50,581 nt of DNA from Vicinamibacteraceae bacterium (GTDB lineage: Bacteria > Planctomycetota > Phycisphaerae > Phycisphaerales > UBA5793). The DNA is taken from positions 1 to 50,581 of the forward strand of contig WYBR01000113.1 of the NCBI GenBank assembly GCA_011525805.1, written 5' to 3'. The notes under the pieces are model-generated. The model was not told the origin of the DNA. It made no database searches and saw only the letters and a list, made by a program, of their open reading frames with translations. This document shows, piece by piece, positions 36,668-41,818 of the stretch. The position numbers and the translations under genes were made by a program. Position 1 is the first letter of the stretch, and every line of letters begins with the position of its first letter.

Positions 36668-38755
36668 ATGAAACCGACCCGGCCATTTCGCCGCAGAGGG
36701 ACCCTCAGGAGCATCGCCTGGTGCGCGGCACTGCTCGGCGCTGCGTGTGGCCGGCCGGGCGCGACTGGGCAATCGCCGCCCTCTCAGGACGCCCCGGCCG
36801 GAACCGCGGCGCCGCCCGCCTCACCACCGGCGACCACCCCTCCGGGCCCGCCCGACGAACCGGGCAAGGGGCAGCCTCCTCCCCGGCAGGTCAATCTCGC
36901 CGACGTGCCATGGGCGGTGCGGCCGGGTCTCAGAATCGCCTCGCTCCGCGCGCGGGTGCCGACGGTGGACCGCGTCGTGCTCGTGCCCGACGAGTTGACC
37001 TACCTCGAAGCGATCTCGGAGTGGAGTCTCGCGGGCCGCTGGCCGGTGCTCTTCGAAGATGACGTGTATGCGCCGATGTTCATTCGCCGCTTCGCGCCCG
37101 CGGAAGTGATCCGCAAGCCCGCCTCGGAGGCGACGATGCCCGAAGGCGCCGAACTCGAGGCGGCGCTGCTCAACATCGTCGCGGCTGCGTGGTGGTCGGG
37201 GCAGATCGACGACCGTTCACTGGACTCCTCGAAGGCGTCCCCCGAGGCGCCGGCGGCCTTCGCGGCGGCGGAGTGGACGCCCCCGGGCGTGGTCATCACG
37301 TCCATCCGCGACGCCGCCTGGCCAGCCGCCCTCGCTCTCGCCGCTGATCGCGGTCAGCCGCTGGCCTTTCTCGACGATCGCTTCGGCACGCCCAACGGCT
37401 CGGTCTCGCTCGAAGACTGGCCGCGGCTGCGAACCGCCGTCGAGTCGCTCGTGGCCGCCGCGGGCTACCCCTACCGCGACCTCGGCGACGCGATCGACAC
37501 CGTAACGATCGTGCGCGACCTGCCGGTCAAATACGTCACGACGGACGATCCGAACGGCAACTCGCGAAACGCGACGACCGACGGCCTGGGCCGGCATGCG
37601 GACGACTCGCGCTGGGCAATCGTCGGCTCGATCTTCGGCGACGGTCCGCGCGCGGTGTACATGTCGATGTGCTCGATCTTCCTCCAGCCGCAATCGGCGC
37701 TGCTGTTTGACACGTATCCCGACCTGGCGGTGTGGTCGCGCTACTCGATGGACAAGCCGGCTGCGCGCTTCCGCGAGGTCGGCTTTGACGTGATCCACAC
37801 CGCCGCGCCGGCGAGCACCGCCGCCGCGTGGGAGTACCTGGCGCCCGGCGGCCTGGAGCGCGACCTCATCTTCGTCAACACGAAGGGCAACCAGAACTGG
37901 TTCGACGCCGCCGACGAGCGGCGCGTCTTCGTGCATGACGTGCCGATCCTCAACTCCCCCGCCGTCGTTCACTTCATCCACAGTTGGTCGTGCATCGCGC
38001 CGGCCAACCGCAACACGCTCGCGGGGCGCTGGCTCGAGCGCGGCGCCTACGCCTACGTCGGCAGCGTCCACGAGCCGACGCTCGCCGCCTTCATCGCGCC
38101 GGAACTGCTGACCGAGCGCCTCCTCTCCAGCGTGCCCTACCTCGTCGCGGCGCGGGTCTGGGAACTCAAGCCGTGGCGCGTGGCGACGATCGGCGACCCG
38201 CTGATGACGCTGCTGCGGCCGGCGCCGCGCGCGTCGCGCGAGTCGCGCCCGACCACCGGCGAAGACCTGCGCGACGCCCTGCGGCGCGAGACGCCCCTCG
38301 CCGAAGCGAGCGGCGACTGGTCGAAAGTGCTGCGCCTCATCAATCTCCTCGGCCTTGACGCGCTCGCCGCGGACCTCTACGACCAGCGCCTCGCCAACCA
38401 CGCGCCCGGCGAGACGATCGCCGAAGCGCTCGGGCCGCTGTTTCGCACGCGCGACGCGGCGACGCTCTTCGCGGCCGTCGAGCAGATCCCCGCGGCGCAA
38501 CTCTCGCCGGCGCGGAAGGACCTGCTCTGGCTCAAGTGGCTGCCCGCCCTCGGTTCGATCGACGATCCCGCGCGCCTCCATCTCCTTCGCGCACACATCC
38601 GCGAGCCGCTCGGATACGTCGACGCCTGCCGCCTCGCGGCGGTAATGAAGCGCCTCGGCCGGCGCGACGAGATCGACGCGATGCTCAACCAATACGAAGC
38701 GGACGTGAAGGACGGCTACTCGCGCCAACTCGTCCGGCGCGCGCGGCCGCAGTGA
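36668..38755 (+). CDS. Lipoprotein of unknown function, possible clan CD (C25-like) relation
   Basis: A 695-residue exported protein. The ATG at 36668 gives a signal segment ending LLGAAC near residue 27, a likely lipidated Cys, then a Pro/Gln-rich linker to about residue 75. A middle region (about 95-310) resembles a cell-wall-binding-2-like pattern: RVVLVPDELTYLEAISEWS, ALALAADRGQPLAFL. A later region carries HSWSCIAPANRNTLAG followed by GAYAYVGSVHEP and ATIGDPLM. The His-x-x-Ser-Cys with a later GDP segment recalls gingipain-like (C25) or TIGR03790-style proteins, but the usual His-Gly-His motif is missing. The link is tentative. The C-terminal 150 residues are helical. The role is unknown. 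Confidence 0.55.
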   Translation: MKPTRPFRRRGTLRSIAWCAALLGAACGRPGATGQSPPSQDAPAGTAAPPASPPATTPPGPPDEPGKGQPPPRQVNLADVPWAVRPGLRIASLRARVPTVDRVVLVPDELTYLEAISEWSLAGRWPVLFEDDVYAPMFIRRFAPAEVIRKPASEATMPEGAELEAALLNIVAAAWWSGQIDDRSLDSSKASPEAPAAFAAAEWTPPGVVITSIRDAAWPAALALAADRGQPLAFLDDRFGTPNGSVSLEDWPRLRTAVESLVAAAGYPYRDLGDAIDTVTIVRDLPVKYVTTDDPNGNSRNATTDGLGRHADDSRWAIVGSIFGDGPRAVYMSMCSIFLQPQSALLFDTYPDLAVWSRYSMDKPAARFREVGFDVIHTAAPASTAAAWEYLAPGGLERDLIFVNTKGNQNWFDAADERRVFVHDVPILNSPAVVHFIHSWSCIAPANRNTLAGRWLERGAYAYVGSVHEPTLAAFIAPELLTERLLSSVPYLVAARVWELKPWRVATIGDPLMTLLRPAPRASRESRPTTGEDLRDALRRETPLAEASGDWSKVLRLINLLGLDALAADLYDQRLANHAPGETIAEALGPLFRTRDAATLFAAVEQIPAAQLSPARKDLLWLKWLPALGSIDDPARLHLLRAHIREPLGYVDACRLAAVMKRLGRRDEIDAMLNQYEADVKDGYSRQLVRRARPQ

Positions 38756-38793
38756 GGCGCACGCCGCGCCCCTCGACGCTACCATCGCCCGCG

Positions 38794-39609
38794 ATGCTCC
38801 GCCCGGATGACATCCCCCACGCGACGCGGGCCGCCGAACTCGTCGTCGAGACGCACCACATCGTCGCCCCGGCCCTCCGCGCCGGCATCACACTCGCCTG
38901 GATCGACCGCCTCGTCGCGCAGACGCTCGACCGGTTCGGCGTCAGCAGCGCCTTTCTCCACTACTCCACCGGGCGCTACCCGGCCTTCCCTTCGCACGCA
39001 TGCCTGAGCGTCAACGACGTCGTGGTTCACGGAACGGCCGGCATGAGCACGCAGCCTCTCAAGCGCGGCGACGTCATCTCCATCGACATCGGCGTGCGCT
39101 ACCGCGGCTGGAACGGCGACGCCGCGTGGACCTACATCATCCAGGAGCCGAGCGCTGAGAGCCGGCGACTGTGCGAATGCGGCATCGAGGCGCTGCGCCG
39201 CGGCGTGGCGCAACTGCTGCCGGGCGCGCCGTTGCTCGACTGGGCCCGAACCGTTCAGCAGTGCGTCGAGGTCGAATACGGCTACCACTGCGTCGAGCGC
39301 CTCGGCGGGCACGGCCTCGGGTGCGGCCGCGACCACCTCCACGATCCGCCGCACCTGGCCAACTCCGTTCCGGCCTACCTCGGCGACTGGCCCGACGCGC
39401 AATTCCGGCTCACGCCGGGGCTCCTCCTCGCCGTCGAACCGATCATCGCCGTCGGCACGAGCAAGGTCATTCAGAAACCGCGGCAGTGGCCGATCCGCAC
39501 CGCCGACGGCAGCCTGAGCGTCCACTACGAGCACGACGTGCTCATCACCGAGCAGGGGCCGCGCGTCCTCACCGCCGGACTCGAGGACCTCCCCATGATC
39601 GTCGGCTGA
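38794..39609 (+). CDS. map: Methionine aminopeptidase type I
   Basis: A 271-residue metalloenzyme removing N-terminal Met from nascent proteins. The five metal ligands fit the family: the two Asp in SIDIGVRYRGWNGDAAW, His in GGHGLGCGRDHLHDPP, Glu in LAVEPI and Glu in VHYEHDV. The substrate His of the VVHG motif (NDVVVHGTAG) is also present. The ATG at 38794 gives the usual length without an N-terminal zinc-finger extension. Upstream, the lipoprotein gene ends 38 bases before, so co-transcription is possible. The selenoprotein gene starts 101 bases after the stop. It is a housekeeping gene. Confidence 0.95.
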   Translation: MLRPDDIPHATRAAELVVETHHIVAPALRAGITLAWIDRLVAQTLDRFGVSSAFLHYSTGRYPAFPSHACLSVNDVVVHGTAGMSTQPLKRGDVISIDIGVRYRGWNGDAAWTYIIQEPSAESRRLCECGIEALRRGVAQLLPGAPLLDWARTVQQCVEVEYGYHCVERLGGHGLGCGRDHLHDPPHLANSVPAYLGDWPDAQFRLTPGLLLAVEPIIAVGTSKVIQKPRQWPIRTADGSLSVHYEHDVLITEQGPRVLTAGLEDLPMIVG

Positions 39610-39710
39610 ACTGGCCGCCCCGCGCGCGCCGACGTACCCTTGCGCGGCGGCGCCCTTCCGACGCCGCTCGCCCCTGCCTATCGCCGTGCCATCTGCAAGG
39701 AGGTTTGTCC

Positions 39711-39935
39711 ATGAAGGTGTCGATCAAGTACTGCGGCATGTGAAACTACCTGCCGCGAGCCGCCGGTCTGGCGGACGAGATCAAGAAGCGATTCAAGGTG
39801 AACGCGGAGTTGATTGAGAGTTCGGGCGGAGTCTTCGAGGTGACGGTCAACGGCCGGCTGGTCTACAGCAAGGCGAAGACCGGCGAGTTTCCCGACAACG
39901 CCAAACTCCTCAAGGAACTCGAAGCGCACAAGTGA
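39711..39935 (+). CDS. selW: Selenoprotein W-like (Rdx family) protein with in-frame TGA as Sec
   Basis: A 74-residue protein if the TGA at 39741-39743 (codon 11) is read as selenocysteine. The start ATG at 39711 has AAGGAGG at 39697-39703. The translated N terminus is MKVSIKYCGM-U-NYLPRA, and animal SelW has YCGA-U-GY at the same place: a CxxU redox motif in the thioredoxin-like Rdx fold. After the TGA the frame stays open for 63 codons and keeps family features (LIESSGGVFEVTVNG, LVYSKAKTGEFPD), ending TGA at 39933-39935. A SECIS-like hairpin lies at 39760-39774. The gene is flanked by map and a terminator. The likely function is redox, with unknown partner. Because of the TGA an ordinary caller would miss it or report fragments. 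A pseudogene reading is unlikely. Confidence 0.92.
39760..39774 (+). promoter_or_regulatory. Candidate bacterial SECIS hairpin
   Basis: CCGCC (39760-39764) pairs with GGCGG (39770-39774) around loop GGUCU (39765-39769). The loop lies 24 nucleotides from the UGA first base, within the 16-37 range reported for bacterial SECIS elements, and it begins with G and contains GU, as expected. The stem is short (5 bp), so a lower stem with mismatches is assumed. Confidence 0.65.
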
Positions 39936-39953: not shown

Positions 39954-39988
39954 CGCCCCCGCCGGCGAGCCGGCGGGGGCGATTCGTT
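39954..39988 (+). terminator. Rho-independent terminator after the selenoprotein gene
   Basis: A perfect 12-bp stem (39954-39965 with 39970-39981), 4-base loop, then ATTCGTTTT. It lies 18 bases past the selenoprotein stop and may also serve the convergent subtilase gene. Confidence 0.9.
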
Positions 39989-40015: not shown

Positions 40016-41818
40016 CTACTCGATCACCTGCTCGACGACGTTGCTCTTGCGCTGGAACTCGGCCGCCTGCATCCAGACGCGCACGCCCTGCGTGCCGGGC
40101 GGAACGCGCTTGCGAAGCAGCGCGTAGCCATCCACGTCGGCCGTGCGGATTCCCGCCAGCGCCGGGCTGGCGAGGTCGATGGTCACGTCGAGTTGCGGGA
40201 TGTAGGTGCTGCCCAGGCCGCGCGTGCTGTAGATGAACGCGACGGTCTGGCCGGGAGTGGCGCGGAAGACTTCCGCATCGCCGTTGACGCCCGCGACGAA
40301 GCGCGAGGTCTGGAGGCGCATGGGAATGCCGCCGCCCAGCGCCGCGGCGACGGCCTCATAGGCGTCGACGCGGCCGGCGCCGAAGAAGTTGTCGCGCCCC
40401 GGCTCGCCCAGATCGAGCGCCGTCGCCTGGAGAATGTCCTTGACGGCGAAGTGGTCAAGGCTGGGATCGGCTTCGAGCATGAGCGCCACCGCGCCGGCGA
40501 CGTGCGGCGTCGCCATCGACGTGCCGCTGAGGTTGATGTAGCCCGAGCAGTTGTTCGACGTGGACTTGGTGTTCACGCCCGGCGCCGAAATCGTGGGCTT
40601 GGGCTTTCCGGGCGGATAGGGCCAGTCGTTGTAGGGCGGGATGTTGCTCCACGTCACCGGGCCCACGCTCGAAAAACTCGCCAGATTGTCGTTGCAGTCC
40701 GTCGCGCCGACGGTGATCATGTCCGGCACGTCGCCGGGCGTGCGCACCGCGTCGGTCGGGCGGCAGCAGTTGCCCTCGTTGCCCGCGGCGAAGATCACCA
40801 CCACGCCCGCGGCCATCGCGTTCTCGCAGATCGACCGCCACATCGGCCGGTTCGGATTCGTCGAGTGCGGCCAGCCGAGGCTCGCGGAGAGCACGTGAGC
40901 GCCGTTGTCCACGCCGTACTGGATGCTGTCCCACACCGTCTGTTCGCCGGAGAAGGAGTTCCAGAACTTGAGGGTCATGATGGAGGCGTCCGGGGCCATG
41001 CCGGTCTGCGTGCCGTTCGTCCCGTCGCCCGCGACGGTGCCGGAGGTGTGCGTGCCGTGCCCGTTGAGGTCGCTGATGTTGCCGTTGCCGTTCTCGAAGT
41101 TCCAGCCGTTGACGTCGTCGACGTAACCGTTGTTGTCGTCGTCGATGTTGTTGTTGGGGATCTCGCCGGTGTTGACCCAGACCTGGTTGCGCAGATCGGG
41201 GTGGGTGGCGCACATGCCGGTGTCGATCATGCCGACGACGACGCCGCGGCCGGTGATGCCGAACTCGCTCCAGACGCGCGGCGCGCCCATCAGATCGACG
41301 CCGCACTCGATTTCCGCGATGGCGCCGCCCTCAGCCGGAAGAACGGGCAGCACTTCCACTCCGCGCGGCGGATCGTGCGCGACGTACGCCACGTCCTCGC
41401 GCTGCGCCAGCCCGACAATCACCTCCGCCGTGGCGCGAACGCCGATGAGATTGTGAAGCCACAGCGGCCGGATTGACTCCACCGCGCCGCTTGACGCGGC
41501 CTGGTTGAGCAGGGTGAGCACGTCCGCCTGCGAGCGCGCCGCCAGCGGCTTGAGCAGGTCGCGCATCGCCTGGCGCTGCGCCTCCTTATTGCCCAGCCGG
41601 GCGATCCGCCCGATCTCATCGCGCGACGCCTGCTCGCGCATCACGACGTACACCTGCACGAGTTGCTCGGGCTTGGCGTCGCGCAGCACCTGGGCGAGGT
41701 CGCCCCGGAGTTTCGACGCGGCCGGCTCGATCGCCTGCCCCATCACGCCCGCACTCGCGCCGGTCACTCCCAGCGCCGCCGCCAGCGCGAGCATCGCCCA
41801 CCTGTTGTTCATCCGCAT
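40016..41818 (-). CDS. Secreted subtilisin-like serine protease with shared tail domain
   Basis: A 600-residue exported peptidase S8. The ATG at 41818 follows AGGAGG. The signal peptide ends in ASAG near residue 23. An I9-like inhibitory propeptide region (about 30-150: QVYVVMREQASRDEI) precedes the catalytic domain with Asp199 (VGMIDTGM), His254 (NGHGTHTSG), the oxyanion Asn347 (FAAGNEG) and Ser434 (LSGTSMATPHV). A Ca-binding-like insert NNNIDDDNNGYVDD is near 222-236. The last 95 residues form the tail module seen in the genes at 9493 and 10934 (STRGLGSTYIPQLDV, final SNVVEQVIE). It likely degrades extracellular protein for nutrition. Confidence 0.92.
   Translation of the reverse strand: MRMNNRWAMLALAAALGVTGASAGVMGQAIEPAASKLRGDLAQVLRDAKPEQLVQVYVVMREQASRDEIGRIARLGNKEAQRQAMRDLLKPLAARSQADVLTLLNQAASSGAVESIRPLWLHNLIGVRATAEVIVGLAQREDVAYVAHDPPRGVEVLPVLPAEGGAIAEIECGVDLMGAPRVWSEFGITGRGVVVGMIDTGMCATHPDLRNQVWVNTGEIPNNNIDDDNNGYVDDVNGWNFENGNGNISDLNGHGTHTSGTVAGDGTNGTQTGMAPDASIMTLKFWNSFSGEQTVWDSIQYGVDNGAHVLSASLGWPHSTNPNRPMWRSICENAMAAGVVVIFAAGNEGNCCRPTDAVRTPGDVPDMITVGATDCNDNLASFSSVGPVTWSNIPPYNDWPYPPGKPKPTISAPGVNTKSTSNNCSGYINLSGTSMATPHVAGAVALMLEADPSLDHFAVKDILQATALDLGEPGRDNFFGAGRVDAYEAVAAALGGGIPMRLQTSRFVAGVNGDAEVFRATPGQTVAFIYSTRGLGSTYIPQLDVTIDLASPALAGIRTADVDGYALLRKRVPPGTQGVRVWMQAAEFQRKSNVVEQVIE

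Follow-up and report, generated by a model that had tools for sequence, protein, structure and literature searches.

The window analysed here, positions 1 to 50,581 of contig WYBR01000113.1 from an uncultured planctomycete, almost certainly carries at 39711-39935 a functional selenoprotein gene of the bacterial SelW-like type (Rdx, PF10262). It is an unannotated new member of the well-known SelW family, overlooked by gene finders because its internal UGA "stop" encodes selenocysteine. SelW-like proteins have long been known and are very abundant in bacteria, so the gene is in itself little new; it supplies a gene that annotations of this planctomycete lineage lack and leaves the understanding of selenocysteine decoding unchanged.

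A preliminary description, made from the sequence alone, had proposed a SelW-like frame of 74 codons with one in-frame TGA at exactly these coordinates, preceded by a strong Shine-Dalgarno site that is indeed there (Table 1). The frame opens with the ATG at 39711, has its in-frame TGA as codon 11 and ends with a TGA of its own at 39933-39935; the product is a protein of 74 residues (MKVSIKYCGMUNYLPRAAGLADEIKKRFKVNAELIESSGGVFEVTVNGRLVYSKAKTGEFPDNAKLLKELEAHK). Near its N-terminus lies the CxxU motif C8-G-M-U11, the U being encoded by UGA. The same description had put the TGA at the position where SelW/Rdx proteins have selenocysteine or cysteine, and in the alignment of homologues the column at position 11 is always Cys or Sec, with Cys forms among the relatives (L018-L021) and Sec in the others. 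Scored with the TGA read as Cys, the product matches Pfam Rdx (PF10262) with an E-value of 2e-21 (76.4 bits, cut-off 22.6), NF041051 (SelT/SelW/SelH (seleno)protein) with 92 bits (curated cut-off 88) and TIGR02174 (CXXU_selWTH) with 64.5 bits (curated cut-off 34.2). These matches are far above chance level.

Table 1. Features of the window and loci elsewhere in its genome and in other genomes
Feature	Position	Strand	Evidence
Methionine-aminopeptidase-like M24 peptidase, upstream neighbour	38536..39609	+	PF00557 2.1e-34; conserved beside selW in genus
Shine-Dalgarno AAGGAGG	39697..39703	+	sequence; 7-nt spacer to ATG
selW-like selenoprotein gene, 74 codons + TGA stop	39711..39935	+	Pfam Rdx, NF041051, TIGR02174 matches; dN << dS 3' of UGA in genus
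In-frame TGA, Sec11 of CGMU	39741..39743	+	TGA in 6/6 family genomes, 80/80 best relatives
SECIS-type hairpin CCGCC-GGUCU-GGCGG	39760..39774	+	covariation in Sec forms, broken in Cys forms
Terminator-like hairpin, 12-bp all G+C, between selW and S8 gene	39954..39981	+	T-rich tails on both strands
S8 subtilase-family protease, downstream convergent neighbour	40016..41818	-	PF00082 1.2e-57; conserved beside selW in genus
Trx/TlpA-like TGA genes (L059-L062)	G000: C96:153-512; C127:12738-13127; C2:14599-14934; C2:15625-16011; C117:5777-6154		
Two-TGA SelW loci of Verrucomicrobiota: L092, L094, L095, L100, L101, L108, L109, L111, L123, L129	around 1460-1690 (L095 around 310-520)		

The gene is conserved together with its TGA. 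It is present with a single TGA in every one of the six genomes from the family, and in a collection of named genomes each of the 80 best relatives, which span planctomycetes, acidobacteria, verrucomicrobia, deltaproteobacteria and others, has TGA at the Sec column; the three closest of these (L063-L065) are members of the genus, recognised by identical sequence over 300 bases, namely uncultured planctomycete PLA5, Planctomycetota bacterium KLAP200 and Phycisphaerales bacterium UBA5793. When genus members are compared, the coding frame 3' of the TGA gives dN of 0.09-0.21 against dS of 0.63-0.90 (dN/dS 0.12-0.27), and this synonymous excess is absent from the other two reading frames, so that selection acts on the protein encoded beyond the UGA. 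A small frame that is intact but for a lone internal stop is the look expected of a pseudogene in any one genome, such as a Cys-type Rdx gene in which a point mutation had turned TGC or TGT into TGA, or of a sequencing error. Against either explanation stand the identical TGA in all members of the genus and family and in the relatives from many phyla, the purifying selection 3' of it and the selenocysteine machinery of the genome described below, which together make them highly improbable. The frame was also followed in close relatives for signs of decay, as the preliminary description had suggested, and is intact there with its TGA; the pseudogene reading was rejected since the TGA is conserved along with the hairpin considered next.

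The SECIS-type hairpin lies 3' of the UGA, with a stem that starts 16 nt and a loop that starts 21 nt downstream; its presence had been claimed correctly, while the distance of 24 nt given for it depends on the base counted. Its small apical loop, GGUCU, holds a G and lies 3' of the UGA, as is the case for bacterial SECIS elements. Over 29 Sec forms, 135 of the 145 cells for the five stem pairs are paired, compared with 24-91 of 145 in controls in which the partner was slid by up to four positions, and most positions of the stem show multiple pair types; the homologue alignment was made without locus L023, from which no motif was obtained. The loop in these Sec forms is mostly GGUCU, AGUUU or AGCCU. 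All 70 further CxxU Sec loci retain at least four of the five stem pairs, whereas in the four Cys forms examined hardly any pairing is left at the two outer positions of the stem, and the loop is different. An isolated stretch of 19 nt folds into the SECIS hairpin (-9.5 kcal/mol), but in a context of 47 nt the ViennaRNA minimum-energy fold is an alternative pairing, and support for the hairpin is therefore taken from its conservation only. A search of the window against Rfam at the gathering threshold gave no match anywhere.

The preliminary description had further concluded that the organism makes selenocysteine, and had taken a lack of selB, selC and selD as the main thing that would refute its reading; selA, selB, selC and selD are all found in the same genome (4.54 Mb, 97% complete). 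The selC gene (G000:C59:20976-21071) encodes a selenocysteine tRNA with anticodon TCA and scores 68 bits; selA (529 bits) adjoins it and selB on contig C59, the selB product (360 bits) having the GTPase, SelB beta-barrel and SelB winged-helix domains, while selD (348 bits) is on contig C71 (L047, G000:C71:15552-16475). That the selW frame is open once TGA is taken as a residue would also agree with an alternative genetic code in which UGA has been reassigned to an amino acid other than selenocysteine. TGA, however, terminates selW itself, the upstream M24 gene (39607-39609) and selD, the genome encodes a selenocysteine tRNA together with SelA and SelB, and the other in-frame TGAs found in it sit at Cys/Sec redox positions, all of which leaves such a reassignment with a next to negligible probability. 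An alternative code was rejected on the grounds that TGA is the normal stop of these genes and that the Sec machinery is encoded.

Several further genes of this genome contain in-frame TGAs. The selD gene, too, codes for a selenoprotein, its in-frame TGA (NCAGUAGKL) lying close to the 5' end, and in five thioredoxin/TlpA-like genes TGA stands in place of the first Cys of the active site (WUGPC or WUPPC), some of these genes having hairpins downstream that carry a loop of the AGUUU type. UxxC Trx-like and Prx-like selenoproteins are of a known kind. With these five genes, the number of selenoprotein genes in the organism comes to at least seven.

Selenocysteine is presumably inserted at the selW UGA. 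Translation would start at 39711 and the ribosome would meet the UGA at 39741, where SelB with Sec-tRNA(Sec) would bind the hairpin just 3' of the codon and bring about the insertion. The outcome would be a thioredoxin-like protein of 74 residues with the CxxU pair as a selenol/thiol redox centre, a redox role suggested by membership in the family. Decoding of selenocysteine in bacteria is generally inefficient and dependent on selenium, which lends something to another view of the same elements, that the UGA serves mainly as a regulatory stop, with readthrough tied to selenium supply, termination as the main output and the hairpin there for control. This is very improbable, given that the selection downstream acts on the full-length protein and that Cys versions of the SelW-like protein exist.

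In comparison with the bacterial SelW-like selenoproteins already known (SELENOW-like, PF10262, CxxU), the planctomycete gene with its Sec-encoding UGA has the same length, the same N-terminal YCxxU and the same GGxFEV and SKxxxGxFP blocks, along with the in-frame UGA and a SECIS-type hairpin downstream of it; ordinary sequence divergence is the only difference, the host being an uncultured planctomycete. The Sec form of SelW-like protein is the most abundant selenoprotein in the Sargasso Sea and GOS marine metagenomes (PMC1088965, PMC2398784), and SelW genes of epsilonproteobacteria are reported to have escaped annotation completely (PMC4607533). Animal selenoprotein W (PDB 2NPB) is homologous by sequence (E 1e-4) and shares the CxxU redox motif, but its SECIS is of the eukaryotic kind and lies in the 3' UTR, whereas the hairpin of the window gene is in the coding region directly 3' of the UGA. 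The Cys-type Rdx proteins, represented by Atu0228 (PDB 2FA8), belong to the same family by sequence (E 1.6e-11); they have Cys at the Sec position and need no Sec hairpin. The SECIS of E. coli fdhF, the sequence of which was confirmed in 5,362 E. coli genomes, has the same GGUCU apical loop shortly 3' of the UGA, though there the loop starts at the 19th nucleotide after the UGA, as against the 22nd in the window gene, and the stem sequences differ.

The position of selW in the genus is constant, between the M24 peptidase (map) and the convergent S8 protease. The start of the M24 frame is uncertain, its homology beginning at about residue 87. The G+C hairpin that separates selW from the S8 gene is likely to be a two-way terminator for these convergent genes. 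A further SelW gene of the Sec type, more divergent than the first, occurs in one member of the genus (L054, G394:C84:43613-43822).

Where the preliminary description went astray was in taking selenocysteine to be uncommon among planctomycetes, the rest of its interpretation being supported. A selA match above the cut-off is present in 239 of the 392 genomes sampled from the phylum (about 60%), which shows selenium use to be widespread there, and a 2016 paper had already described Sec machinery and selenoproteins from planctomycetes (PMC4807772). Rdx is found in 143 of the 392, almost all of the matches listed having exactly one TGA. With a manual selA threshold, chosen by looking at the E-values listed, selA accompanies Rdx in 129 of these 143 genomes and is found in 113 of the 249 that lack Rdx (Fisher odds ratio 11, p 2e-20, a p-value that is only indicative because related genomes are not independent). 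As to the 14 Rdx-positive genomes without a strong selA match, one (G004) has a Cys form as its one Rdx match, and most of the other assemblies are fragmented or incomplete. Within the order to which the window belongs both selA and Rdx are patchy, and those Rdx carriers that are listed for it also carry selA.

In nine genomes of Verrucomicrobiota the SelW frame holds two TGAs, mostly as Y-U-G-M-U-N-Y, which makes both members of the CxxU pair UGA-encoded (UxxU). A search of viral contigs with this form found no relative. All nine of the genomes have selA, eight of them above the cut-off and one as a fragment at a contig end. Reviews of prokaryotic selenoproteins from 2022 and 2026 give SELENOW-like proteins only as CxxU (PMC9312934, PMC13188914), the later one with a single Sec (PMC13188914); UxxU SelW may for that reason be undescribed, to the extent that an incomplete coverage of the literature allows. 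Verrucomicrobiales SelW is probably a double-Sec protein, with a single hairpin perhaps serving a pair of UGAs 9 nt apart, and may possess a diselenide redox centre, which those reviews do not give for the family. Such relatives could inform Sec decoding, as a natural system in which one SECIS hairpin faces two close UGAs. The frame downstream of the double UGA is under purifying selection, and the UxxU genes have a conserved AGUUU loop whose start lies 21 nt 3' of the second UGA and 30 nt 3' of the first.
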